A stretch of 58,866 nt of DNA, taken from the NCBI GenBank assembly GCA_016125135.1, contig WGMJ01000015.1:1-58866 (forward strand), read 5' to 3'. Every line of letters begins with the position of its first letter. Within the stretch, counting starts at the first letter, position 1. Source of the DNA: Alphaproteobacteria bacterium. GTDB taxonomy: Bacteria; Pseudomonadota; Alphaproteobacteria; Micavibrionales; Micavibrionaceae. The notes beneath the pieces are model-generated. The model did not search any database. It was given only the letters and a program-made list of their open reading frames with translations, and was not told where the DNA came from. Shown piece by piece: positions 7,627 to 34,331 of the stretch. The position numbers and the translations under genes are program-made.

Positions 7627-8739
7627 ATGTCTGACAATGTACAGAAAACCCCGCTTCATGCGGCCCATATTGCTGCAAATGCCAAAATGGGCGCATTCGC
7701 TGGCTATGACATGCCGCTTTATTATCCGCTCGGGGTGATGAAGGAGCATGAATGGACACGCACACATTGCGGCCTCTTTGATGTTTCCCACATGGGGCAG
7801 GCCTTGATTGAAGGTGAGAATGTCGGCGTGTTTCTCGAACGGCTCACACCATCTGCCTTTCAAACACTCAAACAAAATGCTGCGCGTTATACCGTACTCA
7901 CAAATGCAGAGGGTGGTATTATTGATGACCTTATCATTACGCGCCTGAGCGAGAATAAATATTTCATGGTCCTCAATGCTGGCTGCAAGGAAAAAGATAT
8001 CGCATGGATCAAACAGAGCCTCCCTGCGAATATTCAATTTACACCACTGCCCGAAAAGGCCTTGGTTGCGATACAGGGGCCGCAGGCCGAGCAAGTGATC
8101 CGCGAGAGCTGCGGAATTGATCTCTCGGTACTTGGTTATATGAAGCTGACAGAGGCGGTTATTGAAGGCGAAACGGTTTTCATTAGTCGCCTTGGCTATA
8201 CGGGTGAAGATGGTTTCGAGATATCGGTATCAGATAAAAAGGCTGAAACTGTATGGAACAAGCTTGCAGCGCACTCAGCCGCGCAACCTGTTGGCCTTGC
8301 CGCACGTGATAGTTTGCGCCTTGAAATGGGTTATTGCCTTTACAGCCATGATATTGATGAGACGACATCGCCGGTTGAAGCAGATCTAACATGGACATTC
8401 CGCAAGAATAATTTTGAATTTATAGGCTGCGAAAGAATTAAGCGCGAGCTTGCCGAGGGCGCAAAGCGTAAACGTGTTGGCTTCCGCCTGCTTGAGAAGG
8501 GTGTGGCGCGTGAGCATTGTAAAGTGCAGGATGTAAACGGGCGTAAAGTGGGCGAGATTACAAGCGGCGGCTTTTCGCCGACACTGCAAATGGGCCTCGG
8601 GCAAATTTATGTTGAGGCGCCTGCAAGCACTGTGGGTACAAAAATAAATATTCTTGTGCGGGATAAGCTTGTGGCAGCTGAAGTAGCTGCCATGCCCTTC
8701 TTGCAACCAAAAACAAAAACGACAGTCAAAGCGGCGTAG
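7627..8739 (+). CDS. gcvT: Aminomethyltransferase, glycine cleavage T protein
   Basis: Tetrahydrofolate-dependent T protein of the glycine cleavage complex, releasing ammonia and forming methylene-THF from the H-protein aminomethyl group. Recognised from TPLHAAHIAANAKMGAFAGYDMP at the N-terminus, GLFDVSHMGQ, RYTVLTNAEGGIIDDLII and the typical SGGFSPTLQMGLG near the C-terminus. The 370-residue length is normal. It heads the gcv operon; only 39 bases separate it from the methyltransferase upstream, too short for a tandem glycine riboswitch. Confidence 0.97.
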   Translation: MSDNVQKTPLHAAHIAANAKMGAFAGYDMPLYYPLGVMKEHEWTRTHCGLFDVSHMGQALIEGENVGVFLERLTPSAFQTLKQNAARYTVLTNAEGGIIDDLIITRLSENKYFMVLNAGCKEKDIAWIKQSLPANIQFTPLPEKALVAIQGPQAEQVIRESCGIDLSVLGYMKLTEAVIEGETVFISRLGYTGEDGFEISVSDKKAETVWNKLAAHSAAQPVGLAARDSLRLEMGYCLYSHDIDETTSPVEADLTWTFRKNNFEFIGCERIKRELAEGAKRKRVGFRLLEKGVAREHCKVQDVNGRKVGEITSGGFSPTLQMGLGQIYVEAPASTVGTKINILVRDKLVAAEVAAMPFLQPKTKTTVKAA

Positions 8740-8753
8740 TAAGGAGTAAGGCT

Positions 8754-9119
8754 ATGACAGTAAAATATACAAAGGACCATGAATGGATCGACACAACAAG
8801 CGGCAAAACAGGTATTACCGATTACGCGCGTGACGCGCTGGGTGATCTTGTGTTCCTTGATTTGCCAAAGGCAGGCCGCATACTAAAGCGTAAGGAATAT
8901 TACGCTGTTGTTGAGAGTGTAAAAGCGGCGAGTGAGATTTATGCGCCTGTAGCTGGTGAAATTGTTGCTGTGAATGATAATCTGGCTAACAGCCTTGATG
9001 ATTTGAAAGAGGACCTTGATAAAGGTTGGATTGTGCAATTGAAAATTGCTGATGCAGGCGATCTGAATGATTTAATGGATAAAGCCGCATACGACGCATA
9101 TTTGAGAACATTGGGATAG
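8754..9119 (+). CDS. gcvH: Glycine cleavage H protein (lipoyl carrier)
   Basis: Lipoylated shuttle protein of the glycine cleavage system. The lipoyl-accepting lysine is K57 in VVESVKAASE, within the hybrid-motif beta-barrel that ends in APVAGEIVAVN. The 121-residue length is typical. A strong AAGGAG Shine-Dalgarno lies just before the start, and the gap from gcvT is 14 bases. Confidence 0.98.
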   Translation: MTVKYTKDHEWIDTTSGKTGITDYARDALGDLVFLDLPKAGRILKRKEYYAVVESVKAASEIYAPVAGEIVAVNDNLANSLDDLKEDLDKGWIVQLKIADAGDLNDLMDKAAYDAYLRTLG

Positions 9120-25108: not shown

Positions 25109-25193
25109 GCCCCTGTGGTGGAATTGGTAGACGCGCTCGACTCAAAATCGAGTACCGAAAGGTGTGTTGGTTCGAGTCCGACCAGGGGCACCA
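25109..25193 (+). tRNA. tRNA-Leu(CAA)
   Basis: An 85-base type II tRNA with perfect acceptor GCCCCTG/CAGGGGC, anticodon arm CTCGA-CTCAAAA-TCGAG (anticodon CAA), a T-arm with the loop TTCGAGT, a long variable arm and an encoded CCA end. The stop codon of a convergent membrane-protein gene lies two bases beyond. Confidence 0.97.
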
Positions 25194-25194
25194 T

Positions 25195-25932
25195 CTATTT
25201 TAGAAGTGTTATTTCCCCTTTTTCCCATGTAGGCCCCCAATTAAAAAGGACTTCTTTTTCTATAGAGGCCGCATTATCGGAAGAGAACAGTATTCCAAGT
25301 ATATACTTTTTATTGATCTCAAATTTAAGCTTGTCGCGTACACTGTTAGGAGTTTGTTTACTGGCAAGTCTTGAGTGCTCAATCTTCCTAAGTAAATTAT
25401 TATAGCCATCAGATACTTCCATATATGAGGTGAAAGCTACATCAATGTATTGTTGTGTTTGCCCCTGTAAGTCAATTTTCTCTTCTTGTTGGTTAGCCCA
25501 AGATAGTGGAGTAGTCTCACCATAAGGCAAGGCTATCCTGCTTTCGTCTTCCCCCAGCATTTGAATTCGGATTAAAGAGGCTGTACAGTTCTTGATCGTT
25601 TTTCCTCCAATGTTTTTAACAAGAAGTCGAAAGTAAATTGCGGGCGACCCATCTGAGAAACTTGTTTTCTGAATGCAGCCAGAGACATCTTTATTGCCTT
25701 GAATCTCTAATTCTGGCTCTTGAAGTTTTTGAGCTTCCGAAGCGATGACAAATAAAATGAAGATGAGTATTAATAAGGAGGTGATTAATGCCCAATTGAG
25801 CAGCGAGAGTTTTTCCCAAGACACATAGCTTACTACGCTACTAGATGCTAAGTATACCATAGCCTTTATGGAGAAGATGATTTTGGGCAGTTGCTGAAAA
25901 GTCGTTTTAATAATGTAAGTAATAACTTTCAT
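25195..25932 (-). CDS. Unknown membrane-anchored protein, 245 aa
   Basis: Unrecognised. An amphipathic N-terminal segment is followed by a transmembrane helix at about residues 46-64 (LNWALITSLLILIFILFVI) and a soluble, beta-rich domain with VKNIGGKTIKNCTASL, which looks like an Ig-like/CARDB-type fold. The sequence is AT-richer than its neighbours. The start is ATG at 25932, overlapping the upstream binding-protein stop by one base (TGATG). The membrane helix and following residues align with the 239-aa protein at 30598-31317 inside the integrative element (W-x-L, LL-x-L, VI-x-S-x-A-x-K). It ends two bases from tRNA-Leu, so it may mark an old insertion. Confidence 0.6.
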   Translation of the reverse strand: MKVITYIIKTTFQQLPKIIFSIKAMVYLASSSVVSYVSWEKLSLLNWALITSLLILIFILFVIASEAQKLQEPELEIQGNKDVSGCIQKTSFSDGSPAIYFRLLVKNIGGKTIKNCTASLIRIQMLGEDESRIALPYGETTPLSWANQQEEKIDLQGQTQQYIDVAFTSYMEVSDGYNNLLRKIEHSRLASKQTPNSVRDKLKFEINKKYILGILFSSDNAASIEKEVLFNWGPTWEKGEITLLK

Positions 25933-26759
25933 CAATTTTCTTCCTCATAATTCGGAGCCACTCTAAGCAAGCTCCCCTTTGTGCCTTCGTATTTTGCGAT
26001 GATTTTTTCAATCTGGCCGTTATCTTGCATTTGTTTAATCACAGTATTCAGCATGCTTTGCAGTTCAAACTCGCCTTTACCGACCAGCATATAGTTATGA
26101 TAGACGCGCAATGGTTTTTGCGCGCCGATATTCACCAGCTTGCCGGGGTTTTCAGCGGCAAACGCATTCCCCTGCCATGTTTCTACAAAGGTGACATCGG
26201 CCTTGCCTTGGGCGACGTTCATCATGTTCAGCGAATAGTCGGTGAATTGCGGTTGCGACACAATTTTTGCGTTCGGGAAATCCTCGGCGGCGATAATGGC
26301 GGGGATTGTGCCGTCAATCGCCGAGACAACAATTTCAGGCTTGTTGATGGCTTCATAATTATTGACGAAGCGTTTGTCATCGGGCCGTACCCATATGCCG
26401 ATGGTGGAATAATAAAGCGGGCCAACAGTTTCTGACCAGAGTGTATCGGACGGTAGCGCGAAGCTGGATGAACAAAGTGCGTCATATTTTTTTGTTTTCA
26501 ACCCTTCCAGATGCAGGCCCCATGTTGTTTCTTCAACCCATTCCACCTTGAAGCCCAGTTGCTTGGCCGCGCTTTCAATCACATCGGCGGCAATGCCGTT
26601 TATTTCACCTGTTGCGGTATCCTTCAGCGAGCCGGGGGCGTAGTTTGCATAGCCACAGCGGATTGTTTGCGTTTTCATGACGCGCTCATAGGCTGTTTCG
26701 GCATAAGCTGGCGTAGCGCAAAGAAGAATAAAAAATGCCAAGAATATCTGCTTCATCAT
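25932..26759 (-). CDS. Periplasmic solute-binding protein (amino acid type)
   Basis: Exported family 3 solute-binding protein. The first residues MMKQIFLAFFILLCATPAYAE are a signal peptide ending at an AYA-E cleavage site. Mature sequence has TQTIRCGYANYAPG, GINGIAADVIESAAKQLGFKVEWVE and SVDYSLNMMNVAQGKADVTFVE-type blocks of polar amino-acid binding proteins. Two adjacent ATG codons make the start ambiguous by one residue. No ABC permease or ATPase lies beside it. A related protein is encoded at 48793-49671. Confidence 0.82.
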   Translation of the reverse strand: MMKQIFLAFFILLCATPAYAETAYERVMKTQTIRCGYANYAPGSLKDTATGEINGIAADVIESAAKQLGFKVEWVEETTWGLHLEGLKTKKYDALCSSSFALPSDTLWSETVGPLYYSTIGIWVRPDDKRFVNNYEAINKPEIVVSAIDGTIPAIIAAEDFPNAKIVSQPQFTDYSLNMMNVAQGKADVTFVETWQGNAFAAENPGKLVNIGAQKPLRVYHNYMLVGKGEFELQSMLNTVIKQMQDNGQIEKIIAKYEGTKGSLLRVAPNYEEEN

Positions 26760-26898: not shown

Positions 26899-28356
26899 AT
26901 GAAATATAACGACACACGTGGCGGCGACCAGAAGGACCTTAAAGATATCCTCATCGGCGGTACGTCACCTACGGGCGGGTTATATGTGCCGGAAACGATT
27001 CCGCAATTTTCGCCCGAGAAGATTGCGCAGCTGAAAAACCTGTCTTACACCGATTTTGCTTTCGAGGTTTTGTATCCGTTTATGGAGGGATCTATAAAGC
27101 CGGATGATTTAAAAAACATTTTACGCGCAAGTTATGGTCCGCAGTTTGAGTCAAACCCTGTTGCGCCGCTCGTTCATATTGACGGGCAGGATGATAACAG
27201 ATATTTCCTCGAGCTTTTCCATGGCCCGACATTGGCGTTTAAAGATTATGCGCTACAATTTGTTGGCCGTTTGTTCAGCCATTTCCTGAAAGAGTCGGGC
27301 GAGAAAATCCTTATTCTTGTTGCAACATCGGGCGATACAGGCGGTGCGGCAATTGAAGCTTTCCGCGGAATGGATAATATCGATATTGTTGTTATGCACC
27401 CGCATAACGGCATTTCCGAGATGCAGCGCAAGCAGATGGCAGGCGTTATAGCGCCAAACGTTTTTAATATCGCGCTTGAAGGCGCGTTCGATGATTGCCA
27501 GAATATTATGAAGGCGGCGTTCAAGGATGAAGCGTTGAACGCCAAGCGCAAAATTGTGGCCGTAAACTCGGTGAACTGGGCGCGTTTGATGACGCAGCTT
27601 GTGTACCATGCATGGTCATCACTGCATGCCAGTGAAAATGGCGAGAGAGTGAATATTGTGATCCCCTCCGGCAATTACGGCAATATGCATTCGGCGTGGG
27701 TTGCAAAGCAAATGGGCTTCCCTGTTGGCGAGCTGGTTGTTGCGACTAACCAGAATGATGCGCTGGTGCGCTTTTTTGAAACCGGCGAGATAAAACTTGT
27801 AAAAGCCAAGCCATCCCACGCGCCGAGTATGGATATTAATATCCCGAGCAATTTCGAACGTTTCTTGCATGTGCTTTATGTGGGCCAATACGGGGCGCAG
27901 CAGGGCCCGGCTTTGTTGAAAGAGCATATGGAAGCAGTCGGTAAAACAGGTGTTTTGAAAGTGCCGCAGGAAATCTGGCAAGCCGCGCGCCAGCATATGC
28001 AAGCCACACGCTGTAGCGATGCGGAGATACTCGAGCATATGCGCGAATACCATGCGTTGAACGGCAATAGAATGGACCCTCATACAGCAGCAGGTTATCA
28101 CGCTTTGGTCGCGTTGGATCTGGCGGGCCCGACCGTTGTGAACGCCACAGCACATGTTGGCAAATTTGCCGAAGCTGACTTGAAAGCAACAGGCAGTGTT
28201 GGTGAATTACCGCCGCGCCTGAAAGCTTTGCAGAAAGCGGAAGAGCGCTACACGGTTTTGCCAAATAATTATGATGCTGTGCGTGATTTTGTAGGGGCGG
28301 TGATTGAGGGCCAGCCGCAGGCCCATGCGCGCCTCGCACAAGCCGCAACGCCGTAA
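26899..28356 (+). CDS. thrC: Threonine synthase
   Basis: PLP enzyme that converts O-phosphohomoserine to threonine. The PLP lysine is K115 in HGPTLAFKDYALQFVG; ATSGDTGGAAIEAFRG and IPSGNYGNMHSAWVAKQMG are the phosphate and substrate loops. The long threonine synthase subfamily is indicated by 485 residues. The ATG at 26899 has AAAGGAAA upstream and is preferred over a start 13 codons earlier. The final base of its TAA belongs to the left att repeat of the following integrative element. Confidence 0.96.
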   Translation: MKYNDTRGGDQKDLKDILIGGTSPTGGLYVPETIPQFSPEKIAQLKNLSYTDFAFEVLYPFMEGSIKPDDLKNILRASYGPQFESNPVAPLVHIDGQDDNRYFLELFHGPTLAFKDYALQFVGRLFSHFLKESGEKILILVATSGDTGGAAIEAFRGMDNIDIVVMHPHNGISEMQRKQMAGVIAPNVFNIALEGAFDDCQNIMKAAFKDEALNAKRKIVAVNSVNWARLMTQLVYHAWSSLHASENGERVNIVIPSGNYGNMHSAWVAKQMGFPVGELVVATNQNDALVRFFETGEIKLVKAKPSHAPSMDINIPSNFERFLHVLYVGQYGAQQGPALLKEHMEAVGKTGVLKVPQEIWQAARQHMQATRCSDAEILEHMREYHALNGNRMDPHTAAGYHALVALDLAGPTVVNATAHVGKFAEADLKATGSVGELPPRLKALQKAEERYTVLPNNYDAVRDFVGAVIEGQPQAHARLAQAATP

Positions 28357-28384
28357 TGGCCTCCCCACGAGGACTTGAACCTCG
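28356..28384. repeat. attL: displaced tRNA-Arg 3' end
   Basis: Left copy of the att direct repeat. Read on the minus strand it gives the T-arm and acceptor TGGGGAG followed by G and CCA, a complete and correctly paired tRNA-Arg 3' end. It differs from the right copy at 28361 and 28376. Confidence 0.85.
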
Positions 28385-28838
28385 CCCGTACTCCACAAGC
28401 TCCGAAGGGCAGGAATCAAAGGGTTAGTGTCCTAAGTTTCAGTGCAATCGTACCTATAATGTAACACTCACTGTAACAAATTCCAGTTAAAAGAATTGTT
28501 TTGTAAGCTGTGTTTTATTGGCAAGCGCACTGTCATAAGGCAAAAAATAAAAGGTGAGTGACTTGGTTTCTAAAAGGAGAAAGAGGAGAGGGGGAGGAAA
28601 AAACAAGGGGGGGCTATGCAAAGTCTTATAGGTGGCAGGGTAGACAATTTTCTCTTTTTTTGAAGTAATAACCCAGAGCCGATAATTCATTTTGTTTCAA
28701 ATAGTTAGCAGGGACTCCAAAATCGGTGTATTTTTAAGCAAAGAAAAAACATAAATAAATACAATAAAATCAATATGATAGACTGCTTTTGGTTTATAAA
28801 AAATCCCTTATTAGGGTATATATAAATGATGTATTCCG
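28385..28838. other. Non-coding left end of the element
   Basis: No convincing gene. It contains CTCC-ACAAGCTCCGAAGGG (28391-28409), an inverted partner of 34232-34249, and a 21-base arm-like repeat at 28460-28480 that recurs at 34163-34183. A purine-rich tract runs from about 28572 to 28613 on the plus strand. The segment is a plausible place for recombination sites and a replication origin, but no iterons are visible. Confidence 0.5.
28460..28480 (+). repeat. Arm-type direct repeat, left
   Basis: TGTAACACTCACTGTA followed by ACAAA. A copy with one mismatch (G for A) lies at 34163-34183 near the other end of the element, in the same orientation. Such paired repeats near both ends suggest integrase arm-binding sites. 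Confidence 0.6.
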
Positions 28839-30587
28839 TTATTTCTTAGTAACATCTGGAACATAATCACTCTTAATTCGCTTGTTATACTTTTCTCTAA
28901 AAGCACTTTTATATGCGTGTTGAATAATCTTCCTTGCTTCTCTTTCTTTACTTTGAGGAACAATAAAAGAGTCGTGGATGGATAATACTGGGATGCCCTC
29001 TCTAAGACAGGCTGAATGTACCTTGTTCGCTACTATTGAATCGAAATTCTGGAGTTCTTTCCACAGTCCTTTTCCCAGTTCCTTCCATATTAGCCCGTAT
29101 TTATCTTTTAGTTGCCCTTTGAAAGTTTGCCACTTCTGCTTGTCTTTAAAAGATTGGTATATGCCCTTTAATTGTTGTTCCTCTATAAGCTCCATATCTT
29201 CTTTTACTAGGGTAGCCACTTGCCTTTCGAGTATTGTCATCTTCCTTTTCCTGTGTTGCTTACACGCTGACTTAACAAAAGGGATTCCTAGCCGCTTTTC
29301 TATTTCTTCTAACACCTGTTCTCGTAGAGCATTTGATTTCTTGCTGTAGGCCATAAACATAAAGACCATTTTAATTAGGCTTCTAGGATAAGGGTTATTG
29401 TCTTTAGGATTTATCACCTCATAGAGGTCGGCCTTATTAACTAGGCTTCCTTGGCCCACTTTAGTAAAGAGTATTGAGGGGTGAAGGCTTTTAAAATCCA
29501 GTTCAACTGTGTCTTCCCAATGTCCTTTGATTTCAACTTGAATAGCTTTCCGTCCTTCTTTAGGCATAGAGTACCACCAGCCCTCATAAAACCGCCCACC
29601 CTCATTTAAATCTCTTGAGTTGAATATCCTTATTGGGTTTGTGTGTTCCTTTGATATTCTGCCAGCTACTTTCTTGATTTCTTCTTTCCTTGTATCCGAT
29701 GCTTTTACTGCTTTGAAATTCACCCTATAAGGAAACTTTTTGGTAAACTCTGTATATTTAACAAGGTCATTATAGAGGGATTTAGCTTGCTTCCTACTTA
29801 CATCTATAAATTCCCTTTCAACGTGCCGTCCACCCTCACTTTTATAAAACAGGCGCTCTACTCCCTCATCTACATCAAAATCCTCTCCCTCATATTGGTC
29901 TATTGAAGCTCCTCCAGCGTTTAGAAAAGCGGTAAAGAATTTCTGTGTAGGCTCTATCGTAGAGCTGCGGCTAGGGTCACTGCCTTTACTGTATGACTGC
30001 CCTTTTATATGCTTTATGTATCCAAGTTTTGCGAGTGTATCTATAATTTCTAAGCTGGTTTCAGACATTCCATATTTATTAGCTTGAATAGTATAGCCAT
30101 CCTGCTTCTGTTTAGCCTTTAAACCTACTTTTGTTGGCTTTTCGCTGTAAATCTGGCGCACCTTTTTAGATAGAGTGTTCCATTCAGGAGAGCCAAGTTC
30201 TGCACTTTCCATGTCTATCTGGGCTAAAATAAGTCTTTCCCGCCATTGTTGCTCATGGGCTTTAAGATTATAGGGGTTACGTTTATACCGTCCTCTTTTA
30301 TTCTTATCCCTTGAATAATATCGGGTAGCCCTTCCTGTAGCGTGGTATCTGGCTATGCTGGCCTTGGATAGAAAATTGCGGATAATGATAGCGATTTCAT
30401 TAAGCACAGCATCTTTTTTTACTTGATTGCTTCGTGTCTTACCTTTGGTCTTGGCTGTTGTAGCTCTTTTAGCATTAATAGCGGTTTCTACTTCTTTGGT
30501 TAACTTCTTACGAAGTTTTTTCTCTGCTGGGGTAGGCTTCTTTAATGATATGTAGCGGATATATTTTTGGGCTTCTGGGTCTTTCAT
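28839..30587 (-). CDS. Single-subunit polymerase-like protein (family A palm / T7 RNAP-type motifs)
   Basis: A 582-residue protein with no name I can give, but with all three palm/fingers motifs. Motif A: VELDFKSLHPSILF with D364. Motif B: R402-S-L-I-K406, then M410 and Y414, the spacing of R-x3-K-x7-Y in Pol A and T7 RNA polymerase. Motif C: SIHDSFIVP with H538-D539-S540; HDSF matches T7 RNA polymerase more than the HDE of Pol I. The conserved GGRFYEGWWYSMPKEGR lies before motif A. The N-terminal ~110 residues are Lys/Arg-rich, and a winged-helix-like stretch is at about 174-215. It is last in a four-gene operon. Likely role: replication or priming of the element; RNA- versus DNA-synthesis is open. 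Confidence 0.65.
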   Translation of the reverse strand: MKDPEAQKYIRYISLKKPTPAEKKLRKKLTKEVETAINAKRATTAKTKGKTRSNQVKKDAVLNEIAIIIRNFLSKASIARYHATGRATRYYSRDKNKRGRYKRNPYNLKAHEQQWRERLILAQIDMESAELGSPEWNTLSKKVRQIYSEKPTKVGLKAKQKQDGYTIQANKYGMSETSLEIIDTLAKLGYIKHIKGQSYSKGSDPSRSSTIEPTQKFFTAFLNAGGASIDQYEGEDFDVDEGVERLFYKSEGGRHVEREFIDVSRKQAKSLYNDLVKYTEFTKKFPYRVNFKAVKASDTRKEEIKKVAGRISKEHTNPIRIFNSRDLNEGGRFYEGWWYSMPKEGRKAIQVEIKGHWEDTVELDFKSLHPSILFTKVGQGSLVNKADLYEVINPKDNNPYPRSLIKMVFMFMAYSKKSNALREQVLEEIEKRLGIPFVKSACKQHRKRKMTILERQVATLVKEDMELIEEQQLKGIYQSFKDKQKWQTFKGQLKDKYGLIWKELGKGLWKELQNFDSIVANKVHSACLREGIPVLSIHDSFIVPQSKEREARKIIQHAYKSAFREKYNKRIKSDYVPDVTKK

Positions 30588-30597
30588 GGTGCTTAAC

Positions 30598-31317
30598 TTA
30601 GGCTTCTCTATAAATTAATTCTCCCCTCTCATCCATACCCACTATACAGCAATACTCAATAGATGGGGAGTTCTCTGCGCTGATTGTGATTTTTACTTTT
30701 ACTGCACTTTTAGCAACAATATCTGCTCGTTGCATATAAATATTGGGTTTAAGAACATTGGCTGCATTTAAGTAATTATCGCGCTCATTATCGCTCATGC
30801 GCTCTAATGCAATAGGCTGATAAAATGTAGCTAAAAAGAATATCTTTTCACTATTAGGATTTATAACAAAGCGGCCACCATTAGCTTCTTGTCCATCAAG
30901 CCCTAAATTTGAATTTATAAAATAATGCTCATTCGTTGCTTCGTTAGATGCTTCAATTAGAATAAGTTCTACGCCAGTGACCACTACTTTGGCTGTGTTT
31001 ATTATTTTAATTAATAATCTTTTGCCGTATTGTTCAGCGCTATGCCTATATTGATTGCTGGTAAGAAGGGATATGGATAGTTTTATTTCCTCAATTTTAC
31101 AGGCTCTAGAACTAATAACTAAAAGGATATGAAGCAGGAAAAGAAGAAGTCCTAACAGAATCCAATGGACAATATTTATATCTATTAAATCAGGAAATAT
31201 TTCTTTTAAGTTTTCGTAAGCGGTAACGATTCCCCCGAATACAACAAATTTTATAAGCTGGACAGCCTTAAATTCCTGCTTAACCACCTCTGCAATGTAT
31301 AGAAACGTCTTTATCAT
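30598..31317 (-). CDS. Unknown membrane-anchored protein, 239 aa
   Basis: Unrecognised. An N-terminal amphipathic segment, a hydrophobic stretch at about 20-32 and a membrane helix at about 51-70 (HWILLGLLLFLLHILLVIS) are followed by a soluble beta-rich domain. The region W52 to about residue 82 aligns with the protein at 25195-25932 (same W-L, LL-L, VI-S, A-x-K and E-E pattern). It lies ten bases before the polymerase-like gene in the same operon, which suggests a role connected with element maintenance or host interaction. Confidence 0.6.
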   Translation of the reverse strand: MIKTFLYIAEVVKQEFKAVQLIKFVVFGGIVTAYENLKEIFPDLIDINIVHWILLGLLLFLLHILLVISSRACKIEEIKLSISLLTSNQYRHSAEQYGKRLLIKIINTAKVVVTGVELILIEASNEATNEHYFINSNLGLDGQEANGGRFVINPNSEKIFFLATFYQPIALERMSDNERDNYLNAANVLKPNIYMQRADIVAKSAVKVKITISAENSPSIEYCCIVGMDERGELIYREA

Positions 31318-31365
31318 ATAGGCAATATGAAAGCCTAAAAGCTAGGCAGTCAAGCCGAATTAGCC

Positions 31366-31704
31366 TTAGAAGTAGGCTTCCTGTTTTACCTTGCTAGAAT
31401 AAAAGAGATAAACCCCTATAGAAACAATCAGCACCGCCCAAAAAGCACCAGCCGTTAATTCACCGCTTACTGTGCCATTCATATCCCCTGAAATTTCCAT
31501 CAGCTTTACTGCAAGCCAGCCATTGCCGATTGTGTAGGCCACAATTAGCCACCACGCATTGCCGTGTTTTTGCCTAGAATGTTCAGGGTCTAGGGTTGTA
31601 TGCTTAACCGCTTCAAGAAACAGCTTCCTCCATTGGAACAGGATAAGACTGCATAAGCCCAGATGCACAAAGCCGCCTATTAGAAAGCCAATAAGAAGAA
31701 GCAT
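31366..31704 (-). CDS. Small polytopic membrane protein, 112 aa
   Basis: Unrecognised. Three hydrophobic segments are visible: LLLIGFLIGGFVHLGLCSLILF, WWLIVAYTIGNGWLAVKLM and FWAVLIVSIGVYLFY. I place the start at ATG 31704 because AGGAGA lies seven bases upstream; a nine-codon longer version would overlap the lipoprotein gene. No homologue is recalled. Part of the element's minus-strand operon. Confidence 0.6.
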   Translation of the reverse strand: MLLLIGFLIGGFVHLGLCSLILFQWRKLFLEAVKHTTLDPEHSRQKHGNAWWLIVAYTIGNGWLAVKLMEISGDMNGTVSGELTAGAFWAVLIVSIGVYLFYSSKVKQEAYF

Positions 31705-31721
31705 ATCAGTATCTCCTCTTT

Positions 31722-32036
31722 TTATTTGCACCTTACAAAGAGGTTGCGGTTGACGAACATACCCATTTGCGTTTGGTAGCCCCCTGAAAAACCTCCAGCT
31801 CCTCCAAAGGCACTCCCTGAACTGTTCACATAGGGTATTTTCTCGCCATTTTGCCCGATAACCTCATACCCCCTTGAGCCACAAACTTCTCCAGCCTTTT
31901 CAACACAGGAACTAAAGCTGTTTGCTGTGCCATTGCACGAGATGTTATAGCCCTGTTTTCCATCAGGTAGAGTTATCTCTTTAGCCATAGTGCAAGCTGA
32001 TAGAATCGCCAGTGATAATATTAAAAATACGCGCAT
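31722..32036 (-). CDS. Small lipoprotein, 104 aa
   Basis: Type II signal peptide with lipobox LSAC (MRVFLILSLAILSAC), so the mature protein is anchored at Cys15. The mature part has paired Cys in GYNISCNGTANSFSSCVEKAGEVCGSRGYEVIG and a C-terminal RNLFVRCK. This Cys pattern recalls small lipoproteins common in gammaproteobacterial genomes, without known function. A strong AGGAGG precedes the ATG. First gene of the element's four-gene operon. Confidence 0.7.
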   Translation of the reverse strand: MRVFLILSLAILSACTMAKEITLPDGKQGYNISCNGTANSFSSCVEKAGEVCGSRGYEVIGQNGEKIPYVNSSGSAFGGAGGFSGGYQTQMGMFVNRNLFVRCK

Positions 32037-32124
32037 TTAAAACCTCCTAAATATCCGATTTTGGGATAATCCTAAAACAGGTTTAATTATAAGGCCGTCC
32101 TTTTGCAAGCAGAAAGTAAAAGCG
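32037..32124. promoter_or_regulatory. Divergent promoter region with palindromes, candidate operator
   Basis: The 88-base gap between the lipoprotein operon (minus) and the XRE regulator (plus). It holds two overlapping inverted repeats: TATCC-N7-GGATA at 32052-32068 and TTGGGAT-A-ATCCTAA at 32061-32075 (one mismatch). A Cro/cI-like regulator encoded next door is the natural binder. No good -10/-35 pair is obvious. Confidence 0.45.
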
Positions 32125-32355
32125 GTGGCATCTCAATACCAAAAAGAGTACAGAGAATTGATTTCCTTATTGGTGAAAGCTCGTAAGGATGCAGGAATAA
32201 CGCAACAGGAACTAGCCAAAAGCCTGAAAAAGCCTCAATCCTTTGTTTCCAAATATGAAAGCTGTGAAAGAAGGTTGGATATTATTGAATTTGTCCAAGT
32301 GGCAAAATTTATAGGATGTGATTATAAGAAAATGCTTTCAAAAGTTATCGCATAA
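32125..32355 (+). CDS. XRE-family transcriptional regulator
   Basis: A 76-residue single-domain Cro/cI-type repressor. Helix-turn-helix motif: AGITQQELAKSLKKPQSFVSKYESCERRLDI, then a short helix FVQVAKFIGCD. The GTG at 32125 is the likely start, since no ATG is in frame and upstream is the divergent promoter; no clear Shine-Dalgarno. It is the only plus-strand gene of the element and probably controls the lipoprotein-membrane-polymerase operon through the palindromes beside it. Confidence 0.82.
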   Translation: MASQYQKEYRELISLLVKARKDAGITQQELAKSLKKPQSFVSKYESCERRLDIIEFVQVAKFIGCDYKKMLSKVIA

Positions 32356-32427
32356 ATACCACCCATTAAGCCCTATATATCCCTACTGTTGTGATGGCGA
32401 AATATATTCTGTATTTCCTATGTTGCC

Positions 32428-32838
32428 CTAGTCTTTCTTTACAAACTTTTTGGCTTTTGATTTATCCATAGTCAATATTGTTGGCTTGCAATCAGTAAAG
32501 TAGAAGCGATTAGGGTTTCTTCCTAATCCTAGCCCTTCGTGTCGCTCTGTATTGAAGAAGTCTGCTATGGGATTAATGCTGTGCGGATTAGCTTTCTTAT
32601 AATCGGTAAATTTCTCTTTTCCAGCAGAACTTTTAAAATAGGATTCGGCAATGATAGCGGTTTCAAGCGTGTCTGCTTTTACCACTGCCTCCAAAATCCA
32701 AGGTGTATAAGGCTTAGTAGAGGGAGATAGTCCTTGGTTATGTTGTTGTAACCTTTGTTGGATATTCTCAGTTCTGCCAACATAGCTCCTGCCTTCATAT
32801 CCCTCTTTAACGCTTCTTAAAAAATAAACGTAGTGCAT
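32428..32838 (-). CDS. GIY-YIG nuclease family protein
   Basis: 136 residues. The N-terminal half has the GIY-YIG fold pattern: HYVYFLRSV, then EGRSYVGRTENIQQRLQQHNQG with the conserved Arg and a Glu in TAIIAESYFK. This resembles the small single-domain group (UPF0213-like). The C-terminal ~55 residues (FFNTERHEGLGLGRNPNRFYFTDCKPT) are unfamiliar. It starts three bases after the integrase stop, in the same transcript. A role in element maintenance or DNA processing is inferred. Confidence 0.75.
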   Translation of the reverse strand: MHYVYFLRSVKEGYEGRSYVGRTENIQQRLQQHNQGLSPSTKPYTPWILEAVVKADTLETAIIAESYFKSSAGKEKFTDYKKANPHSINPIADFFNTERHEGLGLGRNPNRFYFTDCKPTILTMDKSKAKKFVKKD

Positions 32839-32841
32839 CTT

Positions 32842-34161
32842 TTATATCGGGTAGGTTAGTTTGTTTAATTCTTGCTGTAGTCTTTCGATAGTATAACCAG
32901 AGCCATATCCTGAGTGAATATCTTTACTTTCATTATGCCCAACTAAAGCCATGCAAACTGCTTTCTCTACGCCAGCGCAACGCATACCATCAATAAATGT
33001 GTGCCGTAGGCTATGGAAGCATAAGCCTTGTCGCTTAATGCCTAAATCTTTTAGCAATTTGGTAAAGCGTTTGGAAAATACACTGGAATATTTCTCATCA
33101 TTCCCTTTTGGTACATCTTCAAATAAGCGGTTCCAGTTATCTAGCCGTTTTTCCTCTAAGTAGTCTAATAAGCCCATATCAATTAGCTTATGGTGTATGG
33201 GAATTTGGCGGATACTGGAGATAGTTTTAAGGCTCTTATCATCATCGTCATTGTTAATATCAAAAACCCAGCAATTCTTTACTGGCTTAATGTCCTTTAT
33301 ATAAAGCTGACATATTTCATTTAGGCGCATACCAGAATAAAGGCCAATAAGCGGAATCCAATAAAGGGCATCCTTTCTAACAGTATCTCCTTTAGACAGC
33401 CTTTGCTTTCCTCTCAACTTATAGCTTCCTGTGTAAATAGCTGATTGGAATAAGTGCTGTAGTTCTTTCGTAGAGAAGGGAAAACGCTTCTTTCTATAGC
33501 TTTCTTTTATAGCCAATCCATCAAAAGGGTTTTTGCCTTGATAATGTTCGTTTCTTATCGCCCAGTTAAAGAGTGTAGCTAATGCGGCTATATGCTTATT
33601 GATATTCTTCGGACTTTGTAACTCCATCCCCTTTATATCCATGTTGAGAATATTGCCTATCGAAGTGGTTTTTAGCCTTTGCCTTGCGTTCTTGGGTATT
33701 CTGACCATGTAGGCCTTATATTGCTTTGCCTGTTCTATAACTATCTTAGAAAGGGGAAGGTCGCCCAGAAGGTCTATAAAGCCAGCAAAGGCCATTTTCT
33801 TGTGCTTCAAGGTCTTTAAGGCATCAGAAGTGCATTCCGATAGATAGACCTGACAAAGCTGGCTAAAGATATATTCCTGCTTTCTCTTTTCCGTCTTGGC
33901 TATGTAGCGTGGGTTATATTCAAGTCTTAGAGCATTAATTTTATCTTCTATGCCTAATGGGTCTTTATGATAGTGACGGATATATTCCCTTACTTTTAAA
34001 TCTATCTGTACGGAGATAAGCCTAGATTCGGATAACTCTTTAGAACCTAGGGCAATAATTATCTCTCTTTTGAGGGTGTCGTTCCATAGGTGCTTAGGGA
34101 TTGAAGTTCGATAGTAGTAATAGCCGTTCCGTGAATAAAGATTCTTCTCAATAGCTTTCAT
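32842..34161 (-). CDS. Tyrosine-type site-specific integrase
   Basis: Integrase of the element, about 439 residues. The N-terminal domain (LYSRNGYYYYRTSIPKHLW) is of the DUF6538 type. Catalytic residues by position: Arg in SGMRLNE (about 279), a Lys in the beta-hairpin near 312, HSLRH (His383, Arg386), GHNES (His409) and Tyr at about 419 in HSGYGSGY. The start is ATG at 34161; the longer frame starts with GTG three codons earlier. It ends the element next to tRNA-Arg, and a 21-base arm-like repeat overlaps its start (34163-34183). Confidence 0.95.
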   Translation of the reverse strand: MKAIEKNLYSRNGYYYYRTSIPKHLWNDTLKREIIIALGSKELSESRLISVQIDLKVREYIRHYHKDPLGIEDKINALRLEYNPRYIAKTEKRKQEYIFSQLCQVYLSECTSDALKTLKHKKMAFAGFIDLLGDLPLSKIVIEQAKQYKAYMVRIPKNARQRLKTTSIGNILNMDIKGMELQSPKNINKHIAALATLFNWAIRNEHYQGKNPFDGLAIKESYRKKRFPFSTKELQHLFQSAIYTGSYKLRGKQRLSKGDTVRKDALYWIPLIGLYSGMRLNEICQLYIKDIKPVKNCWVFDINNDDDDKSLKTISSIRQIPIHHKLIDMGLLDYLEEKRLDNWNRLFEDVPKGNDEKYSSVFSKRFTKLLKDLGIKRQGLCFHSLRHTFIDGMRCAGVEKAVCMALVGHNESKDIHSGYGSGYTIERLQQELNKLTYPI

Positions 34162-34162
34162 T

Positions 34163-34183
34163 TGTAACACTCACTGTAGCAAA
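34163..34183 (+). repeat. Arm-type direct repeat, right
   Basis: Same sequence as 28460-28480 except one base. It lies immediately upstream of the integrase start, so it could couple recombination with integrase expression. Confidence 0.6.
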
Positions 34184-34254: not shown

Positions 34255-34283
34255 ATGGCGTCCCCACGAGGACTCGAACCTCG
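34255..34283. repeat. attR: right att repeat inside tRNA-Arg
   Basis: The 29-base repeat overlapping the 3' end and T-arm of tRNA-Arg(CCU). It differs from the left copy at 34260 and 34275. Confidence 0.85.
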
Positions 34284-34331
34284 ATCAAAGGTTTAGGAAA
34301 CCCTCGTTTTATCCTGTTAAACTATGGGGAG
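34256..34331 (-). tRNA. tRNA-Arg(CCU)
   Basis: A 76-base tRNA including encoded CCA (34258-34256). Acceptor CTCCCCA pairs with TGGGGAC; anticodon arm AGGGT-TTCCTAA-ACCTT with anticodon CCU; T-arm CGAGG-TTCGAGT-CCTCG. Base 1 to 72 is C opposite C, a mismatch; in the displaced left copy base 72 is G. The 3' end was therefore supplied by the integrative element. Confidence 0.95.

Follow-up and report, generated by a model that had tools for sequence, protein, structure and literature searches.

DivPolA2 is a thumb-less relative of PolA found in phages, whose role was left unexplained in its description (Yutin et al. 2024, Virol J 21:200, PMC11348598). The genomes treated in that article are those of Caudoviricetes, and a term search of its main text returned no occurrence of 'satellite', 'integrase' or 'bacterial genomes'. 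Pipolins, as portrayed in PMC7385651, often lie at a tRNA gene and comprise att repeats, one or more tyrosine recombinases and variable cargo with restriction-modification genes; a DNA priming capacity is reported there for piPolB, their family B, primer-independent polymerase. The 6,110-bp PICMI satellite, according to PMC10803314, contains an integrase, a small regulator, a putative primase gene and further unknown genes, and deletion of prim lowers the satellite copy number.

The window analysed here, a 58,866-nt stretch of DNA from an alphaproteobacterium of the Micavibrionaceae (contig WGMJ01000015.1), carries a divPolA2 gene. The family shares with the proteins of PMC11348598 a PolA palm, the absence of an exonuclease domain and an N-terminal domain of its own, and both the published representative AUR84708.1 and the barbaviruses were recovered; in contrast to the Caudoviricetes genomes of that article, the genes described here reside on chromosomal integrative elements. 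The protein family itself is known. What is new is its tie to chromosomal integrative elements, for which a search of titles and abstracts, with subscription journals mostly beyond its coverage, found no account. The elements resemble a family-A analogue of pipolins: terminal att repeats, a tRNA target, a tyrosine recombinase, a hallmark polymerase and variable cargo recur here, whereas the polymerase is the family B piPolB in pipolins and has a predicted PolA/single-subunit RNA polymerase-type fold, known from sequence and model, in the present elements. Similarly, the window's element shares with PICMI a size of about 6 kb, an integrase, a small regulator and one polymerase- or primase-type gene. 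It differs from PICMI, which has another polymerase/primase family, a site beside fis and an AlpA regulator; helper-phage packaging and phage protection were shown for PICMI (PMC10803314), whereas the element of the window is known from its genes alone.

The integrative element at tRNA-Arg(CCT)

The preliminary description placed the polymerase gene on an integrative element of about 6 kb. This is borne out by 29-nt direct repeats, 5,899 bp apart, which enclose a tyrosine integrase and match the 3′ end of tRNA-Arg(CCT) (Table 1). GC content is 0.38–0.41 in the five 1-kb windows of 29001–34000, compared with 0.45–0.52 in most of the rest. The stretch between the left inner repeat and the polymerase stop codon includes a block of 17% GC at 28745–28804 and is a candidate origin region. 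Small HTH genes like the regulator of this element occur in 2/13 other co-clustered elements (L105 and L108), while the membrane-type protein encoded directly upstream of the polymerase has no match among the 86 other genomes searched. No defence gene was recognised in the element by PADLOC, and the GIY-YIG protein gave a weak candidate defence match (PDC-S14, 8e-6). Neither Terminase_6N nor Phage_portal was matched in the element's own genome, and thus no helper prophage is seen; lytic helpers lie outside this test. An empty site was sought beside thrC in the loci of 29 relatives, and the 22 that were scanned have no tRNA in flanks of up to 1.5 kb. Elsewhere in the window (25109–25935) a tRNA-Leu gene precedes an AT-rich ORF whose product is a membrane-type protein of 246 aa. 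Kinship between the membrane proteins at 25195 and 30598, which look alike by eye, was rejected as they gave no alignment.

Table 1. Features of the integrative element and its tRNA target (window coordinates)
Feature	Position	Strand	Evidence or remark
tRNA-Arg (anticodon CCT), integration target	34256..34331	-	ARAGORN
Attachment repeat within the tRNA 3′ end	34255..34283	.	
Second attachment repeat, far end of the element	28356..28384	.	27/29 identical
Tyrosine integrase, 442 aa	32842..34170	-	Pfam Phage_integrase 5.3e-11, phrog_1 2.5e-34
GIY-YIG nuclease-domain protein, 136 aa	32428..32838	-	Pfam GIY-YIG 3.1e-11
Cro/C1-type HTH regulator, 76 aa	32125..32355	+	Pfam HTH_3 2.5e-9
Probable lipoprotein, 104 aa	31722..32036	-	phrog_5685 1.6e-13; lipobox-like SAC by eye
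Small membrane-type protein, 121 aa	31366..31731	-	
Membrane-type protein, 239 aa, directly upstream of the polymerase gene	30598..31317	-	
DivPolA2/PHROG 4756 polymerase-like protein	28839..30587	-	582 aa, basic N-terminal part, palm/fingers ~242–578
Inner 21-nt repeat, left end; candidate integrase arm site	28460..28480	+	
Inner 21-nt repeat, right end; overlaps integrase start	34163..34183	+	20/21 identical to left
Stretch without assigned gene, left end to polymerase stop	28481..28838	.	67-aa ORF listed

Sequence motifs and predicted fold of the polymerase

The divPolA2 ORF runs on the minus strand from the ATG at 30587 to the stop at 28839, and the forward reading of the same interval on the plus strand is interrupted by many stops. 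The polymerase motifs named in the preliminary description all lie where it had placed them, with D364 of motif A in VELDFKSLHPSI, R402, K406 and Y414 in motif B, and D539 of motif C in SIHDSFIV. The K-x7-Y spacing is, as claimed, the same in the PolA (K209 to Y217 of the PolA alignment) and T7 RNAP (K631 to Y639) families, and the reading of HDSF as the T7 RNAP variant of motif C agrees with IHDSF in the T7 RNAP alignment and QVHDEL in that of PolA. The family alignment comprises 74 members including the window protein, after removal of L119 (PolA-like), the short second matches of L046 and L095, and the members shorter than 300 aa (L034, L044, L045 and L060). R332, R346, D364 and Y389 are invariant in all 74, K406 is kept in 73, R402 in 72 and D539 in 71, the remaining three being alignment gaps. 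This near-invariance argues that the motif residues are not a product of chance.

In contrast, Y414, which had been taken as a motif-B hallmark and is indeed present in the window protein, proves peculiar to it, since the position is N in 55/74 members, F in nine and Y in two. The steric-gate position 369 (D364+5), which is H in the window protein, is H in 55/74 members and G in three, with E found only in AUR84708. Judged from this alignment, a typical divPolA2 member has at these two positions neither the E and Y of DNA polymerases nor the G and Y of RNA polymerases. The equivalents of both positions are conserved within the PolA and T7 RNAP families, as seen in their alignments, and their functional role in those enzymes we take to be sugar selection. 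The position of T7 H784 (513 here) is Q in 43/74 members, M in 24/74 and H in one. Although H369 is paired with N414 in 52/74 members, a coupled sugar-selecting pair was discarded as a candidate, as only three independent pairs fall on supported tree branches and the test shows nothing.

The proposed winged-helix character of the N-terminal part finds an echo in repeated matches to PadR-, TrmB- and MarR-type regulators, each of them weak and non-significant (E 0.1–0.9). The absence of a 3′–5′ exonuclease holds: at E≤0.1 the 43 members scanned match 16 Pfam families between them, and none of these is such an exonuclease. The window protein itself has no credible Pfam domain. It matches neither PF00940 nor, at E≤1, DNA_pol_A (PF00476), and the latter is matched by none of the 43 members at E≤0.1. 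On this evidence, and with a steric gate that is mostly H and not E, divPolA2 is placed by sequence outside bacterial DNA polymerase I; likewise it appears to lack the marks of T7-like RNA polymerases, namely a PF00940 match and the equivalents of G542, Y639 and H784.

Structure prediction, named in the preliminary description as the check for a right-hand palm, returned such a palm and no contrary fold. The AlphaFold models reached pLDDT 76 and pTM 0.66 for the window protein and pLDDT 92 and pTM 0.89 for its relative L041. The latter superposes equally on the apicoplast DNA polymerase 9cay (VIA Z 14.9, rmsd 3.8, 243 aligned) and on the yeast mitochondrial RNA polymerase (mtRNAP) 8q63 (Z 14.9, rmsd 3.7, 254 aligned), and the window model scores Z 13.4 with 8c5u and 13.0 with 9cay. 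A palm and fingers of PolA/mtRNAP type are thus supported by the models for divPolA2, and the superposition suggests that D364 and D539 may occupy a common metal site. Reading RNA versus DNA synthesis from structure was abandoned, as both polymerase classes tie within 1 Z unit. In profile–profile comparison the family is in register with host PolA over a span that starts at the GR motif and reaches motif C (E 9.2e-4, probability 23%, and E 1.5e-4, probability 51%), and it aligns with T7-type RNAP at motif C only (E 5.3e-4 and 1.8e-4), while PolA and T7 RNAP give no meaningful mutual alignment in the same test. Since it aligns to two families that fail to align with each other, divPolA2 looks intermediate between them. 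Against the PDB, the best polymerase for the family profile is Taq, over the GR motif and motif A (E 0.8, non-significant alone), and a second family alignment found no polymerase at E≤1. Predicted palm and fingers, the GR motif and motifs A, B and C are the features shared with PolA and T7/mitochondrial RNAP, whereas the missing exonuclease match, a steric gate that is mostly H instead of E or G and a motif-B tyrosine mostly replaced by N set divPolA2 apart.

Distribution of the family and of its elements

The window protein matches phrog_4756 of PHROGs (E 1.9e-32), a family annotated without function, and its weak second match there is a phage RNA polymerase family, over motif B (5e-5). All 43 rows of the family alignment A2 match phrog_4756, and AUR84708.1 was recovered under the family match; it belongs to the same family as the window protein, which settles the name divPolA2. 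The polymerase is not an orphan, its family having been described in phages (PMC11348598). Overall, what stands of the preliminary interpretation is the small integrative element and, on it, a polymerase of right-hand type from the PolA/T7-RNAP superfamily; what falls is Y414 as a hallmark.

With the window protein as query, tblastn returned 31 phage records and two plasmids (Paracoccus and Thioclava), and an alignment-based search found 36 IMG/VR loci; the relative L041 as query returned 227 phage records, including 115 of Rheinheimera (barbavirus) and 91 of Vibrio. ICP1, a lytic phage parasitised by PLE satellites, carries a divPolA2 member as its hypothetical protein gp100 (L141, 4539–6206), and in Shewanella phage KASIA the gene (L051, 11335–12684) stands beside those for a T7-like RNA polymerase, DNA Pol I, primase and helicase. 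At E≤1e-3 the family profile matched 10/95 relatives (own genome included), 27/397 genomes of the phylum and 30/290 of the class, lists in which some of the weakest matches are to host DNA polymerase I (that of G146 falls within a PF00476 match). At E<1e-9 the class count is 25/290 with the own genome, or 24/289 others (8%). Locus counts leave out the host-PolI-like matches, namely G146 and, judged by a long ORF only, G485, G024:C16, G065 and G625. T7-type RNA polymerase (PF00940) was found in 5/249 genomes, four of them above the cut-off. The polymerase of the class-mate G459 is 84–90% identical to those of four Bradyrhizobium records and 47–71% identical to those of four further loci, which points to Alphaproteobacteria as the class sampled. 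In a quick tree of the 74 members, with SH-aLRT as its only support measure and a midpoint root, 14 chromosomal members form a supported group of their own, and in other groups chromosomal members are mixed with viral contigs; the window polymerase pairs with that of L059, from a tRNA-Leu element in the same bacterial family (support 95).

The chromosomal loci number 54, of which nine (window included) come from the relatives, 26 from the phylum scan and 19 from the class scan. An integrase is present in 38 of them (6/9, 20/26 and 12/19, respectively), compared with 1/20 control windows taken from phylum-scan genomes, and 21/54 combine an integrase with a tRNA gene within 300 bp. The first two locus sets (35/54) and viral loci supplied the sequences for the integrase profile, of which the 19 class-scan loci are independent; contig ends truncate several of the 16 loci in which no integrase was found. 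Of 33 tRNA loci tested, 22 (14/18 and 8/15) contain a second copy of the 3′ end of the tRNA, and all 22 tRNA–att intervals, 6.0–17.4 kb in length, enclose both polymerase and integrase; the longest, that of L253, rests on a 17-nt repeat. In a rough chance control, exact 14-mer matches between a 105-nt stretch and shuffled loci arose in 0/24 trials. The targets are tRNA genes for Leu, Pro, Ala, Cys, Glu, Gly, Val, Ser, Gln and Arg. As the loci were selected by the polymerase, its constant presence is by construction, and only the association with integrase and tRNA is informative.

The cargo is varied, with type I restriction enzymes, methyltransferases, AriA/OLD-like ATPases, PDC-S60, putAbiC, DUF4062 proteins and resolvases, and in several relatives' elements it consists of anti-phage defence. 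The cargo scan covered 97 of the 104 ORFs of at least 150 aa in 21 elements, leaving out five of L253 and two of L109; none of the commonest 25 of the 65 Pfam families matched by these 97 further ORFs is a primase, Rep or polymerase family. The Bradyrhizobium loci L266 and L103 have a 3.5-kb polymerase block in common (88.5% identity). L266 lies at tRNA-Glu and has no further DNA aligned to L103, whereas in L265 and L267 the shared DNA includes the tRNA-Leu/integrase side as well; this contrast is a sign of module exchange among elements.

Some loci depart from this arrangement. L245 contains, at about 2.2–20.4 kb, a near-identical 8,949-bp tandem duplication that includes a family member; its interpretation as an amplified element was dropped, as the boundaries of the copy fall close to a 108-bp repeat array and the locus yielded no integrase. 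The 5,870-bp contig L097 was likewise rejected as a circle, having no exact terminal overlap of 15–300 nt. In L060 a family fragment (8208–8852) with an N-terminus that is integrase-like by eye adjoins tRNA-Pro and is possibly a deletion fusion of integrase and polymerase genes. A second family fragment of L095 (18758–19087), just outside the attachment repeat of its element, is probably the remnant of a neighbouring element.

Possible role of divPolA2 in element replication

On balance, divPolA2 seems somewhat likely to be a hallmark of small tRNA-integrating elements that starts and/or carries out the copying of the excised circle. Islands of this type, each with such a polymerase, occur in many related bacteria, and the enzyme is thus probably the means by which they are copied. 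The integrase would excise the element as a circle, to which the polymerase would be guided by its winged-helix-like N-terminal part; it would then start and/or perform the copying as a primer-making or self-priming enzyme, and the element would re-integrate at a tRNA gene, either in the cell it came from or in a different one. PiPolB is thought to act in this way for pipolins, and prim to serve PICMI satellites. A role in replication or priming is rated highest because of the pairing with integrase and att sites, the lack of another replication family among the 25 commonest Pfam families of the cargo, the parallel with pipolins and PICMI, and the neighbouring RNase HI. The RNase HI gene is a direct, co-oriented neighbour of the polymerase gene in L250 (10813–11334), L257 (10716–11198) and L258 (10781–11278), with gaps of 36, 162 and 227 bp, respectively, and in each case is additional to a host copy elsewhere. 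RNase H-type matches occur in 4/53 chromosomal loci, 1/36 IMG/VR loci, 2/8 Bradyrhizobium/Xanthobacteraceae loci (weaker) and 0/20 controls, figures that compare a test set of 0.93 Mb with a smaller control of 0.40 Mb and include RNase HI confirmed in only 3/53 loci; the fourth match, in L102, was excluded as PF00075 in its genome does not confirm it. The adjacent RNase HI of these three relatives hints that RNA primers are slightly favoured over DNA.

That the protein is instead a miniature T7-type single-subunit RNA polymerase, transcribing the genes of the element or phage and taking no direct part in replication, is considered unlikely. Its motif C reads IHDSF as in T7 RNAP and gives a profile match there, mitochondrial RNAP is among the best VIA matches, Pfam RNA_pol (best E 0.011) and phrog_414 RNA polymerase are each matched weakly by two of the 43 members, and the authors of PMC11348598 also consider an RNA polymerase. 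However, family-A DNA polymerases superpose equally well, and the T7 marker positions are otherwise occupied, that of H784 by Q or M (H in 1/74) and that of G542 by H in 55/74 (G in 3/74). Furthermore, no 11-mer occurs at least three times in the element, and thus no shared promoter set is evident.

An accessory function, in which the gene would be a repair, translesion, anti-defence or defence polymerase carried as cargo by defence-rich islands and large phages, is given a similarly low probability. Phage carriers own other polymerases and keep the gene in a variable neighbourhood, and several carrier elements have many genes for restriction and other kinds of defence. Since such phages can carry their own polymerases, as KASIA does, divPolA2 is hardly the replicase there. 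Against a cargo role, no PADLOC model matches the polymerase at E≤0.01, and the gene stays with the integrase as the other cargo changes in elements of 6 kb to 14 kb, albeit at loci selected by the polymerase. A degenerate, inactive polymerase retained as a DNA-binding protein would fit the poor conservation of the motif-B tyrosine and of the PolA steric-gate residue, but 71–74 of 74 members retain the catalytic Asp, Arg and Lys residues, and this reading is deemed highly improbable.

A more specific form of the replication and priming reading is put forward tentatively, being held rather doubtful as a whole. Accordingly worded, divPolA2 would be an origin-recognising, self-priming fusion of a winged helix with a PolA/mtRNAP-type polymerase, often laying RNA that element- or host-encoded RNase HI removes; it would define widespread self-replicating elements that form the family-A counterpart of pipolins, its gene being exchanged with large lytic phages.

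The present locus ties a phage polymerase family of unexplained role to a small element whose ends are mapped, and so opens the function of the family to direct tests; the elements of relatives often carry defence genes. DivPolA2 can serve as a marker gene for locating such islands in genomes of the class, where it is found in 24/289 others. If the enzyme primes and copies its element, a compact, possibly primer-independent polymerase with an unusual sugar-selecting site would become available, and self-replicating integrative elements would be founded on family A as well as on family B, the latter known from pipolins.
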